DNA of 64,000 nucleotides, taken from the NCBI RefSeq assembly GCF_009707365.1, contig NZ_CP046122.1:1364001-1428000 (forward strand). The letters are read 5' to 3'. Source of the DNA: Microlunatus sp. Gsoil 973 (GTDB taxonomy: Bacteria; Actinomycetota; Actinomycetes; Propionibacteriales; Propionibacteriaceae). A program made the position numbers and the translations under genes. The notes below the pieces were generated by a model, which worked only from the letters and a program-made list of their open reading frames with translations, ran no database searches and was not told the DNA's origin. Shown piece after piece: positions 35,636 to 44,804 of this stretch (its first letter is position 1; each line of letters begins with the position of its first letter).

Positions 35636-35823
35636 GCCCTGGCACAGTACGTCAAAGCCCGCCGTCCAGACGCGCAGGCACGAAGTCGTCGGTCAGCAGA
35701 AGCACCGCCTGCCAACAACGAGTCGGACCGGCATAATCCGTGTCATCTCTACAGGCGGACCGGATTTGGGGCGGCGTGGACTCTGGTGATGTTCGCAGAG
35801 TGCCCGACGACGAAAGGCTGCCG

Positions 35824-36444
35824 ATGCGCCACGTGCTCGATTGGGTCGTCGCCGTCATGCGGGCGCTCGGGGCCCCGGGCGTCGGCGTCGCTACCGCAGT
35901 CGAGAGTGTCTTCCCGCCGGTCCCCAGCGAGGTGGTACTTCCTCTCGCCGGATACACCGCCAGTCAAGGACACTACGGAATGATTCCTGCGATCGTCGCT
36001 GCCACTGCAGGATCGCTCGCCGGTGCGTACGTCCTTTACTACCTGGGTGCAGCGTGGGGCAGGGACCGGATCTGCGCCGCTGCCGACCGTGTTCCGCTGC
36101 TCCACGCGCGCGACGTCGAGCGGGCGATCGGGTGGTTCCGACGTCACGGGCCCGCCGCTGTCCTCCTGGGCCGTATGGTGCCCGGGATCCGGAGTCTGAT
36201 CTCCATCCCTGCCGGCATCGACCGGATGCCGATCTGGTCATTCTCGATCTACACGGTCGCGGGAAGTTCGGTCTGGAACTCTGCTCTGATCGTCGCCGGC
36301 TATGAGCTCGGCGCGCAGTGGCACCACGTTGAGGGATATGTGGGCACCGTGAGCAATGTCATCTACATCGGCCTCGGGCTTCTTGTGATCGGCTTTGTGC
36401 TCCGGCGGCTGCGACGACGCGCGCAGGGCTCGTCCGGGGAGTAG
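35824..36444 (+). CDS. DedA-family membrane protein
   Basis: A 206-residue DedA protein with the family segments VFPPVPSEVVLPLAGY (near 37), GRMVPGIRSLISIPAG (near 118) and about five hydrophobic stretches including re-entrant loops. DedA proteins are proton-dependent lipid transporters; some move phosphatidylethanolamine or undecaprenyl phosphate between leaflets. ATG 35824 follows GAAAGG. It lies 558 bp upstream of a cinnamycin-like lanthipeptide cluster whose family binds phosphatidylethanolamine, so a link to self-protection is conceivable but unproven. Confidence 0.9.
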   Translation: MRHVLDWVVAVMRALGAPGVGVATAVESVFPPVPSEVVLPLAGYTASQGHYGMIPAIVAATAGSLAGAYVLYYLGAAWGRDRICAAADRVPLLHARDVERAIGWFRRHGPAAVLLGRMVPGIRSLISIPAGIDRMPIWSFSIYTVAGSSVWNSALIVAGYELGAQWHHVEGYVGTVSNVIYIGLGLLVIGFVLRRLRRRAQGSSGE

Positions 36445-37002: not shown

Positions 37003-37329
37003 ATGGCTGAAGTCTCTGTGGAGACAGTAATGATCCGGTACCTGCAGGGGTTGGCCGTCCTGCTCTCGTGTTTTCCGAAAGGAGGAAAGGTCCACGAGTT
37101 CTTCCAACTGGCCCTTGACGCGGAGGGTCCTGCAGTGTTGGCGCGAGCCAACGTAGACGCTGCGCTCGATGACGACGCCGAGTTGAAGGCTTGGCTCGAA
37201 AAACTTTGGGCGCCCGAAGGCCTTCACGCCAGCGAACAGGGGTTGGTCGAGTGGCAGAACAACTCCGACAACATGACGGCGGCTCTTGATGAGTTGCGAG
37301 CGGTGGTCGGGAACTTCGGTTCACTCTGA
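37003..37329 (+). CDS. durN: DurN/Cinorf7-like lysinoalanine-forming protein
   Basis: A 108-residue protein directly upstream of the cinnamycin-type precursor, the position of cinorf7 in the cinnamycin and durN in the duramycin cluster, and close to DurN's length (about 119). DurN is a dimeric, metal- and cofactor-free protein that helps Lys19 add to dehydroalanine 6. Helical sequence with conserved-looking VETVMIRYLQGLAVLL at the N-terminus and VEWQNNSDNMTAALDEL near the end. ATG 37003 has AAGGGG upstream; ATG 36841 with its own Shine-Dalgarno would give 162 residues but adds an Arg-rich, unconserved-looking segment. Assignment rests on position, size and the Lys19/Ser6 pair in the precursor. 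Confidence 0.72.
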   Translation: MAEVSVETVMIRYLQGLAVLLSCFPKGGKVHEFFQLALDAEGPAVLARANVDAALDDDAELKAWLEKLWAPEGLHASEQGLVEWQNNSDNMTAALDELRAVVGNFGSL

Positions 37330-37407
37330 ACGACCGATCCCGGTCAGTCTCATCGAATCATTTATCCCCCTAAATCAAAATGAACACATTCAAGAAAGGG
37401 ATCACTC

Positions 37408-37659
37408 ATGACCGAAACGGTTAGCGATCGCACATTCACTGACGCCGACGAGGCACTCCTTTCGGCTGTCGTCGACCAGGAATTCCGCGCCCACATGACC
37501 GACAGTGGTGACTTCACCGATGCAGCGCTCCCGGCCGCGGTGGAGCCTCAGGAGCAGGCTCCGTTGGATCTCGCAGCCGGAAGTGCCTTCACAGCACAAT
37601 GCAGGTCGACCTGCAGCTCAGGCCCGCTGACGTTCGTGTGCGACGGAACGACCAAGTAG
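37408..37659 (+). CDS. lanA: Cinnamycin-family lanthipeptide precursor
   Basis: An 83-residue peptide. Core residues 65-83 are CRSTCSSGPLTFVCDGTTK, identical to cinnamycin at 14 of 19 positions. Ring partners are all present: Cys1-Thr18, Thr4-Cys14, Cys5-Thr11, Ser6-Lys19 (lysinoalanine) and Asp15 for hydroxylation. Changes are Gln3 to Ser, Ser4 to Thr, Phe7 to Ser, Phe10 to Leu and Asn17 to Thr. The leader also matches the cinnamycin leader (VVDQEFRA, then VEPQEQAPLD). The AFA cleavage site of cinnamycin is here AFTAQ, so the protease or mature N-terminus may differ. A GAAAGGG Shine-Dalgarno precedes the ATG. Confidence 0.95.
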   Translation: MTETVSDRTFTDADEALLSAVVDQEFRAHMTDSGDFTDAALPAAVEPQEQAPLDLAAGSAFTAQCRSTCSSGPLTFVCDGTTK

Positions 37660-37681
37660 TCCGAATCGACCGAACGACGAC

Positions 37682-40600
37682 GTGATCAAGGCACATGACA
37701 GCGCCACGGGACGTGACAGTGTGACACAGCCCGGAGCCGACGTCTTTGGTCGCGACGATCTTCGAACCGTCGGCGGTCTGCCCGCCTACGAGGCAGCCCT
37801 TCAGGTCGCAGTGCGGGCATCGAACCTCGCCGAGCAGACCGCCGTCGTCGCAGCTCTCGCCGACGTTGTTGTCGACGAGAGTGATCAGCCCCTTCGACCG
37901 GCCGAGGACTGGCAGATCGGCCGGTTGGCCGACCGCTTGGCCGACCAGAGGACCGACGTCGACACCATCACCCGCGTGGTACGGCGCTACCGTACGTGGC
38001 GCCGGCGCGCGGACAGTATGGATCAGACGGCCCGTGCCACGGTGGCCGACATTCACCGCCGATGGATCGGCGTCTACGCCGAGGCGTTGGCCGACTTCGC
38101 GCCCGCCCCTGACTCGGTTGAAGCGCCCACCTCATCCAGACATCGCATCGGACTGGCCTGCGCACCATTCACACAGCATCTGCGCCGTCGCCTTGCGGAG
38201 CGACGAGCTGTCGCGAATCGGGCGGCCGGGCGCGAATTGATCAGCCGCGAGGTCGTCGACGCATTCGAGGCGCATCTCCTGGACCGGTTCGAGCTCGCCG
38301 CTGCCTGGGCCATCGAGGCACATGAGAACTTGACGTTCGCGCGCTGGGGGGCGAGTCGTGAGACGGCCAGGGATGCCGACCACGACGAATACTTCCGGTT
38401 GACCTTCGCCGACGCCGCGCACTGCCATGAGTTCTTCCTCCGATTCTCGGTACTGGCCAGGTGGTTGGCCGCCGTCACCGGCCAGTTGGTTGAGAACGGC
38501 ACTCAGCTGATCAACAGGCTCGCCGCCGATGTCGATCTGATCGGCGAAGCGATCATCGGGCAACCGGTCCGATGCTTCACCTCGGTCGAGCTGGGCAAGG
38601 GCGACTATCACCGGGGTGGCAACAGTGTGGCCATGATCGGTGTCGATCTTGGCTCGACGCGTGCGGCGCTCGTGTACAAGCCGAGACCGTTGGCTGTCGA
38701 GGTCGCCATGCAGCGGCTCCTGGGACGGCTCTCCGACGACGGCGTGATCAACTTCGCACGACGCAGGGTCGTCGCGCTGCAGGATTACGGCTATGAGGAG
38801 CGGATCCCCCACGGACGCAACGAGGTCGAATCTCCCGACGAGGCTGCGCGGATCTTCGAGGAGCTCGGTGGATTCCTGGCGGTGTTCTATGTCCTCGGTG
38901 GCAGCGACCTCCATCACGAGAACGTCATCGTCGCCGACGGACATGCCCACATCTGTGACTGCGAAACCGTGCTCGGTGTGGAGCCTCCGGGGCATGAACT
39001 CGGTTGGCACACAGTCGCCGACTCGGTGTTTCGTACCGGGCTGTTGGAATGGCCGTTGCCACCGACGACCGAGGTCGTCACTCGGCTCAGCGGCTATTCC
39101 GGCGGCGGTGTGTATGAGGTCCCCTTCCCGGTTCCCCGGCTGCAGGACGGAGCTGTTCCGACCGTTCGCCACGAGACGGGCGTCCGCATCGAGGGGAACG
39201 CAGCGAACCGTGTCCGACTGGCCGGCACCCTGCTCGAGGCGAAGGACTTCGAGGATTCGATCGTGCGAGGTTTCACCGCCGTGCACGATTGGTTCCGCAC
39301 CCAACCGGGCGCGCCGGCCTACATCGCCGAGTTCTTTGCCGCGACGGACATCCGTTACGTTGCGCGCAACACCCAGACCTACGTTCAGCTGCTGATCGCA
39401 GCCCGGCATCCGCGCTGCCTGGTCGAACCGCTCGAGGTCGACGTCGTGTTCAGACGTCTTGCCGAGGCGCCGCTGCGCTGGGACTCCGACGGTCGCGCCA
39501 CTGCAGCTGAGCTGCGCTCGCTCTGGCAGCTCGATGTACCGACCTTTGGTGTCGCAGCGCAGCAGCATGAGTTGCTCAACGACAACGTCTACCCCACTGG
39601 CGTCACCGCGGCTCGTTCGCCGCTCCAGGCGGCTCTCGAGCGCATCAGGTCCCTGCCGGCCGACGATCGGCTTCGGCAGGTCAGCTACATCAGCGCCAGC
39701 CTGTCGACGGCAAAGGTACGCGATGACAGTTTCGTCATCACCGCGCTCGAGTGGGCACAACTGGTCGGTCAGGAGCTCAGCGGGTTGCTGGCTGAGCCGG
39801 GCCCCGGACCCCGCTGGAGCTACGCCGCGGCCGATGCGGATGTGAGCGACATCGAGGGCACGCTCTACTACGGGAGCGCGGGAGTGGCTTTGTTCCTCGG
39901 GTATCTCGACGCGATCATCCCCTCGCCCAGCGTGAACCGCGCGGCGCGCGATGCGTTGGCGCACTCCTTGAGCCATCCACCCCGCGGAATCGGCGGGTTC
40001 GACGGCCTGGCCGGACAGGCGTACGTGCTCGCCCACCTCTCCGCCCTGTGGGGCGATCAGAAGTTGTGGGACCTTGCCGTCAACCGAGTCGCGCAGATCG
40101 ATCCGTTGATCGATGACGATCGGGACCTTGACGTACTGAGCGGCAGCGCCGGGGTGATCGCGGTGCTGCTGGCGATGTCCGACATGTCCGACATGACAGA
40201 CATCGGCCTGGCGACCGCGCACCGATGCGCCCAACACCTCCTGGATCATGGCGTGTCCGGAGAGCATGGCCTCAGTTGGCCATCGAGCACACCGGAGGTC
40301 GGCATCGCTGACCTCACCGGGTTTGCCCATGGAGCGGCGGGAATCGGATGGGCGCTGACCAGGCTCGGCGCGGCGACCGGACACGCGGGCTACATCGACG
40401 CGGGGCTGGCAGCCTTCGAGTACGAACGGCACCACTTCGACGACGAACATCAAGACTGGTACGACCTGCGCACGAGCATGCAGGACCCGGTTCATGGTCG
40501 GCGTCATTTCGGCAACGCGTGGTGCAACGGCGCGCCGGGCATCGGGCTCAGCCGACTGGAATCGTGGTCGGCCCTTGGGCGTGGCGAGGTGTTGCTTCTC

Positions 40601-40954
40601 GATGAGGCGTACACGGCCCTTGCCGCAACCTTGCGTGGGCTGTCATCGGTCGGCAACGAGACGCTGTGTCACGGAGTCTCCGGGAACTCCGAGATGCTGC
40701 TGCGGATCGCGGCCCGCCAGCAAGAACCCGCGTTCCAACTCGAAGCGAATGTTCAAGCCCAGGCGATGTGGCGTCGCCTGGCAGCCGCATCCAACTGGCC
40801 GCGTGAGGAAGCCGGCCGCCAACCGCTCTCGGGACTGATGGTCGGCATCGCCGGTGTCGGCATGCACTTTCTCCGGGTCGCCGAACCGGACCGTGTGCCG
40901 TCACCGTTACTGCTCGACCCTCCGAATCCAACGCTATGGAAGGTAGGTACGTGA
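37682..40954 (+). CDS. lanM: Class II lanthipeptide synthetase LanM (CinM-like)
   Basis: The 1090-residue bifunctional enzyme has an N-terminal Ser/Thr dehydratase (kinase-like DUF4135 domain, about residues 150-560, with GGSDLHHENVIV and YKPRP). The C-terminal LanC-like cyclase has zinc ligands Cys948 (WCNGAPG), Cys996 and His997 (LCHGVSGN). It would dehydrate Thr4, Ser6, Thr11 and Thr18 of the core and close three thioether rings. The GTG start is 22 bp after the precursor stop. It ends directly at the ATG of the next gene (TGA then ATG), indicating one operon. Confidence 0.97.
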   Translation: MIKAHDSATGRDSVTQPGADVFGRDDLRTVGGLPAYEAALQVAVRASNLAEQTAVVAALADVVVDESDQPLRPAEDWQIGRLADRLADQRTDVDTITRVVRRYRTWRRRADSMDQTARATVADIHRRWIGVYAEALADFAPAPDSVEAPTSSRHRIGLACAPFTQHLRRRLAERRAVANRAAGRELISREVVDAFEAHLLDRFELAAAWAIEAHENLTFARWGASRETARDADHDEYFRLTFADAAHCHEFFLRFSVLARWLAAVTGQLVENGTQLINRLAADVDLIGEAIIGQPVRCFTSVELGKGDYHRGGNSVAMIGVDLGSTRAALVYKPRPLAVEVAMQRLLGRLSDDGVINFARRRVVALQDYGYEERIPHGRNEVESPDEAARIFEELGGFLAVFYVLGGSDLHHENVIVADGHAHICDCETVLGVEPPGHELGWHTVADSVFRTGLLEWPLPPTTEVVTRLSGYSGGGVYEVPFPVPRLQDGAVPTVRHETGVRIEGNAANRVRLAGTLLEAKDFEDSIVRGFTAVHDWFRTQPGAPAYIAEFFAATDIRYVARNTQTYVQLLIAARHPRCLVEPLEVDVVFRRLAEAPLRWDSDGRATAAELRSLWQLDVPTFGVAAQQHELLNDNVYPTGVTAARSPLQAALERIRSLPADDRLRQVSYISASLSTAKVRDDSFVITALEWAQLVGQELSGLLAEPGPGPRWSYAAADADVSDIEGTLYYGSAGVALFLGYLDAIIPSPSVNRAARDALAHSLSHPPRGIGGFDGLAGQAYVLAHLSALWGDQKLWDLAVNRVAQIDPLIDDDRDLDVLSGSAGVIAVLLAMSDMSDMTDIGLATAHRCAQHLLDHGVSGEHGLSWPSSTPEVGIADLTGFAHGAAGIGWALTRLGAATGHAGYIDAGLAAFEYERHHFDDEHQDWYDLRTSMQDPVHGRRHFGNAWCNGAPGIGLSRLESWSALGRGEVLLLDEAYTALAATLRGLSSVGNETLCHGVSGNSEMLLRIAARQQEPAFQLEANVQAQAMWRRLAAASNWPREEAGRQPLSGLMVGIAGVGMHFLRVAEPDRVPSPLLLDPPNPTLWKVGT

Positions 40955-41431
40955 ATGACCACGACGTCTGCATGCCACGAGTTCCTCGACCTCGCCGATC
41001 ACGATCTCGAGATCGCCCGGATGATGAGAGCAATCACCGACCCGGCCGAGCTTCCGCTGCTGGGACAGAGGCTGGGCTTCGCGTTCGACGGCGAGTCGAT
41101 CATGGCCGCTGTGATGGAACGCAATGCCGACCAGGAACCGGGCGAAGAACCCGTTCAGCCCAGTTCGCCGGTGGAACAGGCGATGGCTTCGGCGCTGCAC
41201 TACGAGTTCGAGGTCGGCGACGTCGCGGAGTTGGCTCCGATCATCGATGACCTGCCGAAGCTTCGGCTTCGGCCGGCAACCGCCGACCTCGATCGGTTCC
41301 GCAGTGAGTTCCGGGCCGAGGACTATCAGTGGGCCGATGAGTCGCCTGCCTCCCCTGGATTCCAAGCGCGCTACGACGAGATCATGGCCCCGCACTGGAC
41401 CGGCAGCACGGACTCCCCCTGTGCGACGTGA
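40955..41431 (+). pseudogene. cinX: N-terminal half of a split CinX/DurX-like hydroxylase
   Basis: A 158-residue ORF begins immediately after lanM. Its first 50 residues (EFLDLADHDLEIARMMRAI, ELPLLGQRLGFAF) recall a Nif11-type helical domain. It runs into five C at 41415-41419 and stops at 41431. With one C fewer the frame would continue straight into the 2-oxoglutarate oxygenase ORF to 41897, giving about 313 residues, close to the size I remember for CinX. Hence this is probably one gene split by a +1 shift (mutation or sequence error), less likely two overlapping genes. Confidence 0.65.
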
Positions 41432-41897
41432 CTTCCATCTGATCAACCTCGACCAGGCCCCGAGTCTGCCGGAGTACCAGCCGTATTTCGACGCCAAGGT
41501 ACGGACGCTGGAGCATCTTGAAAAGGTGTTCGGCCCGGGGATTCGCTTCTCCGGGAGCATGTGGTACCCGCCCTACGCGTATCGGCTCTGGCACACCAAC
41601 CAGACCCAGCCGGGCTGGCGGATGTACTTGATCGACTTCGACGAGGACATCCCGGCCGGCGACACCCGGACCTTCATGCGCTATATGAACCCGTACACCA
41701 AGGAACTGGTCACGCTCGCGGACCGACCGCAGCTGATCCGTTTCTTCCGGATCCGCGAAGACCCGGTCCTCTGGCACTGCATCGTGAACCGAGCCGAGCG
41801 GGACAGGTGGAGCTTCGGTTTCGTCGTGCCCGATGACTGGATGCAGCGGCTGTCCCAGGCAACACCGTCATCCGAGAGAGACAAGAGAGTCCAATGA
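41421..41897 (+). pseudogene. cinX: C-terminal catalytic half of the split Fe(II)/2-oxoglutarate hydroxylase
   Basis: The ORF has the features of a double-stranded beta-helix oxygenase of the HTN-type: RLWHTNQTQPGWRMYLIDF (His58 counting from GTG 41421), then FMRYMNPYTKELVT, RFFRI and LWHCIVN (His119) and RWSFGFVVP. This fits Asp15 hydroxylation of the lanthipeptide, the role of CinX. The GTG at 41421 has no Shine-Dalgarno and lies inside the C-run region, supporting a frameshift within one gene. Its stop overlaps the next ATG (ATGA). Confidence 0.7.
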
Positions 41898-42505
41898 CCA
41901 GGACCGATCAGGACCGCAATCCGAACCGGCTGTATTTCAACCTCGACTACCACGCCGCACTGACCAGGGCAGCGTGTCCCGACGATCCAAAGATCAAGGA
42001 TGAACTCGAGGTCATCGTGGCCGCGAATCTGGCGACCGACGCCAACCAGTTCAACAGTGCGTGGCACTTCGACAACTGTGCGTTCGGACCGGGCACCGAG
42101 CGCATCGACGATCTCTGGGAGCTGATCCGATCGACAACCATCGAGACCAACACATTTGTCGACTTCGGCACGATGATCCACACCGTGGAAGACTTCTATG
42201 CGCACTCCAACTGGATCGAGCTGCATACCGACGTCGATCCGATCCCTACCTGGGACCTCCAGGTCGGCTCGCTGCCGGCCGACATCGTGAGCGGGACGTT
42301 CCTGCTCGACTGGCCCAAACTGTGCGGTCCGAATGCACCGACGCACGCCGAACTGAACAAGGACTCCCCCACGTCGACTGAGGGGGCCAAGATCGTTCAG
42401 AGCGGACCCAATGCCGGCAAGTCCCTCTTCGACCTCGCCTACGCGACGGCGCTTCAGGCGACGCGGGATCAGTTCGCTGACCTGTCCAAGGTCGTCAATG
42501 GGTAA
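41894..42505 (+). CDS. Het-C/phospholipase-C-like metal protein in the lanthipeptide cluster
   Basis: A 203-residue protein with WHFDNC (His58), then FGTMIHTVEDFYAHSNWIEL (residues 91-110: His96, Asp100, His104, Asn106). This is the metal-site signature of Het-C and zinc phospholipase-C/P1-nuclease-like folds. The ATG overlaps the preceding stop by 4 bp, so it is the last gene of the operon. I do not recall this family in described cinnamycin-type clusters. It might act on phospholipids (self-protection or activity) or on the peptide. No signal peptide is visible, which suggests a cytoplasmic role. Confidence 0.6.
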   Translation: MTRTDQDRNPNRLYFNLDYHAALTRAACPDDPKIKDELEVIVAANLATDANQFNSAWHFDNCAFGPGTERIDDLWELIRSTTIETNTFVDFGTMIHTVEDFYAHSNWIELHTDVDPIPTWDLQVGSLPADIVSGTFLLDWPKLCGPNAPTHAELNKDSPTSTEGAKIVQSGPNAGKSLFDLAYATALQATRDQFADLSKVVNG

Positions 42506-42845
42506 TCATCCGCAGACATCGCGGTCCAAACTGTGACGGCGTGTCCCGGTACGCCGCCGGCCGGCGTCGCGCGCGGCCCGGACGCCCGGGCCGCGGACCT
42601 GATCACCAGGCGAGTGCCAGGTAATCGTCGGGCCGCTCCCGGACGAACCACAGCGCGGTACGCGCTTCGCCCCGGTCGTCGCCGAGGCCAAGCTGCCACC
42701 GAGCATTGAAAGCGATGATCCACGCAGCGGCGGCCGCCGCCACCCGTTGTTCCGGACCCGTGAACGGCTGTCCGCGGGAGGATTCGTAGCCCTGAAGGAA
42801 TGTAGCCACCTCCTCCGGACTCGACAACCCACCGCCGCTGGTTGA

Positions 42846-42851
42846 GCTAGC
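42846..42851. repeat. Left target-site duplication of the IS481 element
   Basis: GCTAGC directly flanks the element and matches the NCTAGN target known for IS481. Confidence 0.85.
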
Positions 42852-43833
42852 TGTTCTGTCCACGGAGGTTAGGTACGAGGTCGGCTGGTGACTTGCCGTC
42901 GAGTGCGGTGTGTCCGCGGTGGTGATTGTAGGTGTGGAGCCAGTCGGTGAAGCAGGCGGCGCGTTCTGCTTCGGATGAATAGGGTTGGGCGTAGGCCCAT
43001 TCCTGCAGCATGGTGCGGTTGAATCTCTCCACTTTTCCGTTGGTCTGGGGCCGGTAGGGCCGGGTGCGTTTGTGTTTGATGTCTTCGCCCAGGGCTGCGG
43101 CGAACAGCTTGGAGCGGTAGCAGGAGCCGTTATCGGTCAGCACGCGTTTGACCACGATGCCTGCTGAGGCGAAGTAACTGTTGGCCCGCTGCCAGAACGC
43201 GGCCGCGGTCTCCTTCTTCTCATCGGTCAGCAGCTCGCTGTAGCCGAGCCGGGTGTGATCATCGACAGCGTTATGGATGTACCAGTAGCCGATCTTTCCC
43301 CTACGGGTGTTCTTCTGACCCTGAACCCGACCCACGACGCGCCAGCCGCCGCCGTCGGGGATCCGGCCCAGTTTCTTGATATCGACATGGATGAGGTCTC
43401 CCGGCGCCTGGTGGACATAGGAGTTGATCTTGGTGCGGCCGGTCTTGATCCGGGTCCCGGTCGCCGGGTCGGTGAACGTCAACAGTGGACAGCCGTAGCG
43501 ACGCAAGATCTTGTGCACGGTGGAGACCACCAGCCCCAGCCGGTAGGCGATCCGGGCCGGCCCCCACCGGCGCGAGACCCGCAAGCCGACCACCCGGCGC
43601 TCGATCCTGGTCGGCGTCCGCCCCGGCGACACCCGCGGGCGGGACGATCGATCCCGCAATCCCGCGGCCCCCGCGGCCCGATCGGAACGGTACCGGTCAG
43701 CCCACCGTTTTGCCGTTGTCACCGATACCCCGAACCGCTCCGCGGCCCGGCGCAACGGCCAACCCTGATCGACAATCAGCCGGGCCAGCCGCAGACGACC
43801 AGTCGGGGTCAGAACAGCGTTAACGTGGGACAC
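42847..43833 (-). CDS. IS481-family transposase
   Basis: A 328-residue DDE transposase. Two HTH units fill residues 1-100 (LRRAAERFGVSVTTAKRW and WGPARIAYRLGLVVSTVH). The rve core has HVDIKKLG (Asp), VLTDNGSCY (Asp) and PYRPQTNGKVERFNRTM (Glu). GTG start with GGAGG 6 nt upstream. The stop codon TAG lies in the target duplication, so the element itself carries no stop and the C-terminus is completed by the target sequence. Full length, so likely active. Confidence 0.93.
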   Translation of the reverse strand: MSHVNAVLTPTGRLRLARLIVDQGWPLRRAAERFGVSVTTAKRWADRYRSDRAAGAAGLRDRSSRPRVSPGRTPTRIERRVVGLRVSRRWGPARIAYRLGLVVSTVHKILRRYGCPLLTFTDPATGTRIKTGRTKINSYVHQAPGDLIHVDIKKLGRIPDGGGWRVVGRVQGQKNTRRGKIGYWYIHNAVDDHTRLGYSELLTDEKKETAAAFWQRANSYFASAGIVVKRVLTDNGSCYRSKLFAAALGEDIKHKRTRPYRPQTNGKVERFNRTMLQEWAYAQPYSSEAERAACFTDWLHTYNHHRGHTALDGKSPADLVPNLRGQNS

Positions 43834-43942
43834 GAGGACCTCCGGTGTCTGAGATGTGTTTGCTTGGTCGCTTCACACCTCACCCGGAGGTCCTCGTCAT
43901 CGTCCAGCCGGCACGCCGTAACTAACGTCCGTGATCAGTACA
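42852..43942. mobile_element. IS481-family insertion sequence, 1091 bp
   Basis: The ends are TGTTCTGTCCACGGAGGTTA on the left and TGTACTGATCACGGACGTTA on the right (read inward), imperfect terminal inverted repeats beginning TGT, as in IS481. Flanking 6-bp duplications are GCTAGC (42846-42851 and 43943-43948). One transposase gene fills it. The clean duplication and intact transposase indicate a recent insertion. Confidence 0.92.
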
Positions 43943-43948
43943 GCTAGC
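43943..43948. repeat. Right target-site duplication of the IS481 element
   Basis: GCTAGC, the second copy of the 6-bp target. Confidence 0.85.
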
Positions 43949-44804
43949 TCCATAACAGGCCGCGGTGAACCCGGCGATCACTGCTTCGGTGTCGGCAACC
44001 AATTCCCAGTCGTACGTTGCCACCAGCTTCCCGTCGGCAACTGCGACGTTCCCGACGTACCAGTCGGCATGCCCGACCACCACATCGCCGGCGTCGCGGT
44101 GGGTGAGGATCTGGTCGGCGGCCTGCTCTGCGAACCGGTCCAGCCAGCGATAGCCCAGGGGTGTGGCAGTGAAATCAACGATCGGATCATGCGGCACAGG
44201 CCACGGTCCGGCCTGGTATTGGCACCACGATGGCCCGGAACCGGCCTGATCGATGAGATCGGAGCGATGTCGCAGGACATCGATATGCCCCGCAAGCCCG
44301 TCGGCCAACAGCCGTCGGATGACCGGATCACGCCCGTCCGCGACCTGCCCGTCGGGCAGCAACGTTTCGACCCGGAGGACCTGGCCGGCCATCTCGTCGG
44401 GGCCGGACAGCGGCTCTGCACACGGAAAGCCAACTGCACTCAAGGTTTGCTGGGCCTGCGTTGCAGCCGTGACGGCTCCAAGATCGACAGGCCGCCGGTG
44501 GGCCTTGACCGCCACCTTTCGGCCATCGGTCAGCTCAACTCCCCAAACGACGTCGATGCGACCGGATCGAAATCGCACCCGCGCTATAGAAGATCCGAGT
44601 GTTTCCTGGGTATAGCCGCTGAACAGCCGCAAGATCTCGGCCGGCAAGGAGACCTGGAGAACCGCTCGTTCGGTTTCGGTCACTTCGGTCTCCACGTCGG
44701 CCACGCCGACGCCATCGGGTCTACCGGCTGAAGACACCATGACCACAGTCTCCCTGTCTGTCGTCCGCCGCCGTCTCAACCATCGTGGTCACGATGCCCG
44801 GAAC

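Follow-up and report, generated by a model that had tools for sequence, protein, structure and literature searches.

The 64-kb stretch of DNA analysed here (the window; G000:C1:1364001-1428000) is part of the one-contig, 4.91 Mb genome of Microlunatus sp. Gsoil 973, which has a completeness score of 99.87%. At positions 37003-42505 of the window, a compact run of genes on the + strand, lanN-lanA-lanM-lanX1-lanX2-lanY, makes up a cinnamycin-family lanthipeptide locus that is variant by its cleavage site, its exporter, a split hydroxylase and a CinY homologue (Table 1). The genes are tightly coupled: lanM and lanX1 are adjacent, lanX1 and lanX2 overlap by 11 nucleotides (nt), and lanX2 and lanY share an ATGA overlap. 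A ribosome-binding-like site (AAGGGG) lies upstream of lanN.

Precursor peptide and modification enzymes

A back-translated core pattern, GPxT[FW]xCDGxTK, matched the window once and gave 0 matches in 100 shuffles, and the precursor LanA meets the cinnamycin-family model NF033431 with 58.6 bits (cut-off 35). Scanning a genome collection of 84,980 species (by its own description) with the core pattern returned 11 loci, ten from Actinomadura and one from Streptomyces cinnamoneus; the pattern requires GP and CDGxTK, so that cores diverging from these motifs escape it, and the scan may not have included the window's own genome. Alignment of the core, CRSTCSSGPLTFVCDGTTK, with the cinnamycin core of S. 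cinnamoneus JCM 4633 confirmed the 14 of 19 identical positions reported in the initial annotation of the locus. The ring partners, the Ser6/Lys19 pair and Asp15, described there as kept, are indeed conserved, the former in kind: position 4 is Thr where cinnamycin has Ser, and the corresponding ring would therefore be a methyllanthionine. Thr4 is likewise found in 10/10 fetched Actinomadura cores and in the kyamicin core (PMC6974636), and Gly8-Pro9 is conserved as well. The family is confirmed, and CRSTCSSGPLTFVCDGTTK is new among the 11 named loci, the best match being L008 with 17/19 positions. The predicted fully modified product, trimmed to Cys1, is C79H123N23O26S3 with [M+2H]2+ at 953.916; the same mass arithmetic reproduces the value of 1006.926 published for duramycin (PMC6974636). 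A product lacking the hydroxyl would be expected at 945.918, and forms lengthened by Gln or by Ala-Gln at 1017.945 and 1053.464.

The DurN-sized gene noted before the precursor proved to be a member of the DurN family (PF19375; PDB 6c0g). Its product conserves 16 of 24 columns that are invariant in eight relatives, a count made without three of the 11 named loci and without L029. LanM is encoded by a fully open frame of 3.3 kb and conserves 241 of the 285 columns in which 12 relatives do not vary, including WCNGAPG and CHG motifs, which we take to be the LanC zinc motifs. A 13-row LanM tree places the window on a long branch that falls outside the group formed by S. cinnamoneus and Actinomadura (support 99/97); it pairs with the other long branch, so that its precise placement is unsure. 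The order cinorf7-cinA-cinM-cinX given in the initial annotation holds together with the assignment of LanM, while the "oxygenase" is a CinX homologue in two pieces.

CinX is described as an alpha-ketoglutarate/iron(II) hydroxylase (PMC5408092). The two pieces were searched separately and occupy separate alignment rows, with the break not joined. In Pfam lanX1 matched just Nif11, below the cut-off, and no family was found for lanX2. A PDB sequence profile search with lanX2 gave 0 matches, a plasmid search with the lanX2 protein as sole query gave no relatives, and its predicted structure, with a mean predicted local distance difference test score (pLDDT) of 48, was too poor for a fold search.

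LanY aligns with an S. cinnamoneus protein at 32% identity over 138 amino acids (aa; E 1.1e-8), which is CinY by its place after CinH and by the gene order given in PMC6974636. The basic, signal-like N-terminal stretch of CinY, judged by eye from the sequence, is missing from LanY. From a common motif around DFYxHSNW one might guess at a metal-dependent hydrolase; PDB profile matches of the CinY pair at E 0.6 and 0.94 were not used, and the LanY predicted structure (mean pLDDT 31) was too poor for a fold search. Deletion of cinYZorf8orf9orf11 is described as leaving cinnamycin production unaffected (PMC5408092).

Table 1. Features of the lanthipeptide locus, in window positions
Feature	Positions	Strand	Evidence
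lanN, DurN-family lysinoalanine synthase, 108 aa	37003..37329	+	PF19375 E 3.6e-21; PDB 6c0g (lysinoalanine synthase) E 7.2e-15
lanA, precursor peptide, 83 aa	37408..37659	+	Pfam DurB-like PF19398 E 1.2e-14; NCBIfam cinnamycin_RiPP NF033431 58.6 bits, E 7.3e-16
Leader end AGSAFTAQ, without [A/V/I]-[F/Y]-A cleavage site	37576..37599	+	Comparison with 11 named loci
Core CRSTCSSGPLTFVCDGTTK	37600..37656	+	Pattern match and alignment with relatives
lanM, class II lanthipeptide synthetase, 1090 aa from putative GTG start	37682..40954	+	TIGR03897 500 bits, cut-off 304
lanX1, N-terminal half of CinX homologue, 158 aa	40955..41431	+	32% identity to S. cinnamoneus CinX, E 2.7e-22
lanX2, catalytic half of CinX homologue, 158 aa from GTG, different frame	41421..41897	+	53-62% identity to 11 relatives
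lanY, CinY homologue, 203 aa, VWA7_N/Het-C-like	41894..42505	+	PF25107 (VWA7_N) E 3.5e-10; Het-C below cut-off

Self-protection and phosphatidylethanolamine synthesis

Missing neighbours were sought by tblastn (E 1e-4) with S. cinnamoneus CinT, CinH, CinR, CinK, CinL, CinR1 and Cinorf11 as queries. No match to CinR, CinK, CinL or CinR1 was obtained in the window, and Cinorf11 weakly matched a DedA gene (E 9e-5); barring this weak match, CinL, CinR, CinK, CinR1 and Cinorf11 matched the S. cinnamoneus locus alone. The lack of regulators and of a lipid methyltransferase remarked on earlier is thereby upheld, but it is not peculiar to this locus: CinL, CinR, CinK and CinR1 were also not found in 12-20 kb around the ten Actinomadura clusters, where the L025 stretch falls short of the places of CinL and CinY in S. 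cinnamoneus and L022 stops before that of CinR1. Elsewhere in the window's own genome the best CinL-like matches are weak (E 4.6e-5 and 3.3e-4).

S. cinnamoneus is described as methylating its own phosphatidylethanolamine (PE) via CinL/Cinorf10 (PMC5408092). The window's genome has no phosphatidylserine decarboxylase gene, psd (PF02666; 6/14 control genomes were positive), which was found in 1/20 genomes of the genus, in an assembly that is 83% complete. Among 13 cluster-bearing genomes psd occurs in S. cinnamoneus only, and among 16 genomes the same species alone has pssA above the cut-off, adjoining psd; the ten cluster-bearing Actinomadura genomes have no psd, and no pssA above it. In the remaining genomes pssA matches are below the cut-off and mostly short, and the window's genome gave fragments only (best 30 bits). 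The sole cluster-bearing genome with both psd and pssA is therefore that of S. cinnamoneus, which has CinL. In line with this pattern, PE is reported for two described Saccharopolyspora species (PMC11599206), and the Saccharopolyspora kyamicin cluster carries KyaL (PMC6974636). Bacillus subtilis pssA mutants are reported to lose PE and to resist both duramycin and the product of Actinomadura coerulea (PMC12837462).

Without psd, and without pssA above the cut-off, the organism probably contains no PE that would need protection. Judged from its gene content, the window's genome probably makes no PE via the known route, and the tested Actinomadura may likewise be without PE synthesis. The initial annotation had concluded that self-protection has to lie in other genes or be different, which is right in form, and protection by absence of the target lipid appears the likeliest solution. 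Immunity by missing PE was not found proposed in the literature searched, which covered few subscription papers. A rule by which CinL is dispensable where PE is not made predicts which genomes are able to carry such clusters in the absence of an immunity gene, as well as the heterologous hosts suited to peptides that are used as PE probes and are of therapeutic interest.

The DedA gene (35740-36444, +) stops about 560 nt upstream of lanN, and a DedA/VTT protein also adjoins the S. cinnamoneus cluster (Cinorf11; L020, 17463-18650, +). It was considered as an immunity gene of the cluster and rejected: among the 20 genus genomes searched, ten others encode relatives of 43-52% identity, making it a neighbour only. 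Some DedA proteins transport lipids, PE included, across membranes. A function of DedA in lipid handling beside PE-binding lantibiotics may merit attention.

Proposed mechanism and alternatives

The reading that we favour, with rather more confidence than doubt, is that of a reduced cinnamycin-family locus with a PE-binding product, in a producer without PE and with a different export. It starts from the gene identities and their order, the missing neighbours and the missing psd and (above cut-off) pssA, and extends from these to chemistry, PE binding, immunity by a missing target, and export. LanM would dehydrate Thr4, Ser6, Thr11 and Thr18 and close the methyllanthionine rings Cys1-Thr18, Thr4-Cys14 and Cys5-Thr11, LanX1 and LanX2 together would hydroxylate Asp15, and LanN would link dehydroalanine-6 with Lys19. 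The product would bind the PE of competitors; a producer making no PE would itself have no need of a PE-methyltransferase. Export and leader removal would run off the CinT/H and signal-peptidase route, with a general exporter and protease leaving a different, probably extended N-terminus.

A number of observations weigh against this reading. Immediately ahead of Cys1, the leaders of the 11 named loci have AYA (7), AFA (1), VYA (2) or IYA (1), i.e. an alanine-ending site in 11/11 and a strict AxA in 8/11; cleavage by a type I signal peptidase is presumed for AYA/AFA (PMC12837462). The window leader reads AFTAQ-C and has lost the alanine at -1, a loss that, like the CinY homologue, the initial annotation had not noted. 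CinT and CinH homologues are present in 11/11 named loci and missing from the window, where the sole weak CinT match is a protein with an ATP-binding cassette (ABC) domain at 26.1 kb (E 5e-5). The earlier statement that no ABC transporter stands beside the genes is thus borne out, as is, in form, its corollary that export must either rely on genes at another place or be different: in the rest of the genome the nearest CinH matches are distant (25 and 27% identity, compared with 49.6-61.3% between S. cinnamoneus and the ten Actinomadura), and a C39 peptidase was not found in the genome (8/14 control genomes positive). The joint loss of cleavage site and exporter fits an altered export route or decay. 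Further, lanX1 and lanX2 align end to end with consecutive parts of CinX in two frames, and a ribosome-binding-like site was not found ahead of the lanX2 GTG. The lanA-lanM gap has no counterpart (z 0.35) of the S. cinnamoneus cinA-cinM hairpin (z -3.99), and no sigma-70-like promoter was found at the locus, a result of little weight, as shuffles yield just 0.8. CRSTCSSGPLTFVCDGTTK has Ser and Leu in place of the cinnamycin residues Phe7 and Phe10, positions at which the Actinomadura cores vary too. Finally, near-full-length pssA matches below the cut-off in three genus relatives (G107, G001 and G116) leave the lipid route of the genus not fully clear, and the correlation of psd with CinL rests on few independent lineages, with 10/13 genomes from one genus and completeness unstated.

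The split of the hydroxylase could reflect gene fission with translational coupling, frameshifting, recent mutation or sequencing error. The last of these, in which the real CinX is in one piece, is compatible with the favoured reading and is considered possible, if not the expected outcome: a run of five C lies directly ahead of the lanX1/lanX2 overlap and both pieces match CinX end to end, but the genome is a single contig of 99.87% completeness. CinX is a single open frame in 11/11 named relatives. The break is situated in the variable linker ahead of the catalytic half, and codon-position base composition indicates coding phase on either side of it, with a switch near 41.4 kb. LanX2 conserves 63 and changes 18 of the 81 columns in which 11 relatives do not vary, with HTN, WHC and RWSFG kept. 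If real, the split would point to a natural place of division between the N-terminal half of CinX and its catalytic half.

A less likely but serious alternative, which the initial annotation did not weigh, is that the locus is a decaying relic, which has lost its exporter and cleavage site, suffered a broken hydroxylase and no longer yields an active, exported peptide. Those same losses speak for it, together with an IS481 transposase gene 341 nt beyond the operon and the occurrence of the DurN family in just 1/293 genomes of the order. Conversely, the long open lanM frame with its conserved columns, the unharmed pattern residues of the core, the invariant columns retained by lanX2 (HTN and WHC among them) and the coding composition that continues on both sides of the frame break would not be expected of a relic. 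Decay is thus suggested by the split hydroxylase, lost site and lost exporter, and opposed by an intact LanM, DurN, core and set of catalytic residues.

Returning to the favoured reading, its most far-reaching form is unlikely to hold in full. It would be a live PE-targeting system in a PE-less bacterium, in which target absence replaces CinK/R/L, the hydroxylase has two subunits, and an N-terminally extended product of ~20-21 residues is made without CinT/H and an alanine-ending site; target absence would then be the default immunity of cinnamycin-type producers outside PE-bearing genera. That the peptide instead targets a different lipid or acts as a signal, as the seeming lack of PE in the producer and the two altered aromatic residues might suggest, is improbable in view of the conserved Gly8-Pro9, Asp15 and Ser6/Lys19 pair, the reported inactivity of the P9Q variant and of non-hydroxylated cinnamycin (PMC5408092) and the pssA-dependent resistance of B. 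subtilis to the A. coerulea product (PMC12837462), though 10/10 other Actinomadura genomes are without psd.

Related systems and neighbouring genes

The S. cinnamoneus cluster (L020) shares the order N-A-M-X, a CinY homologue further on, the 14/19 core identity and a LanM of 45% identity; it differs in having CinT/H, R, K, L and R1, a one-piece CinX, an AFA site, the cinA-cinM hairpin, psd, and pssA above the cut-off. The ten Actinomadura clusters resemble the window locus in Thr4, in the lack of CinL, CinR, CinK and CinR1 matches and of psd, and, for L008, in the core, whereas they have CinT/CinH, a one-piece CinX and an alanine-ending site, and gave no CinY match in their stretches. Actinomadura is the source of the published compounds cinnamycin B and coerumycin. 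In 10/10 Actinomadura loci (L018, L019, L021-L028) the CinT and CinH matches share one long open frame, so that the exporter looks fused, as it does in the coerumycin paper (PMC12837462). The kyamicin cluster is similarly compact, with KyaN, A, M, X and Thr4, but retains KyaT/H, KyaR, K, L and R1 (PMC6974636). Divamides from Prochloron are cinnamycin-like, with an N-trimethyl-Glu and a GTTK end, and are made with divMT and divT (PMC9505594), whereas the window operon has no methyltransferase gene.

DurN-family genes are rare: within the order (293 genomes) they were found in the window's genome alone, and in a phylum sample in 2/396. The second genome (G395, 2.4 Mb, same phylum, different family) carries lanN-A-M, and its core (...VYAGSSTCSWGMTIVCDKITQSLVAC) is very different (L003, 1191-1439, -; L029, 4473-4724, +). 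No CinX match was found at this locus, which is a divergent DurN-linked lanthipeptide. Viral contigs, searched with the core pattern as sole query, gave no relatives. In divamides, the N-trimethyl-Glu precedes Cys1.

Elsewhere in the window's genome, ABC-2 permeases at 843 kb and 3555 kb are generic exporter candidates, and a second lanthipeptide-type synthetase of 787 aa (L055, 2194-4557, +; G000:C1 ~750-753 kb) is class III/IV-like, judging by its protein kinase and LanC-like domains. An empty site could not be defined for the locus, as nine genus relatives (~10 kb on each side of the DedA homologue) share DedA alone of 21 window genes. The IS481-family transposase gene occupies 42847-43833 (-; NF033577, 338 bits), 341 nt past the operon end. 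An imperfect 49-nt inverted repeat pair (42829-42877 and 43917-43965) probably marks the ends of the IS481 element, and the flanking minus-strand frames at 42603-42863 and 43922-44779, which have no Pfam match, may be one interrupted gene.

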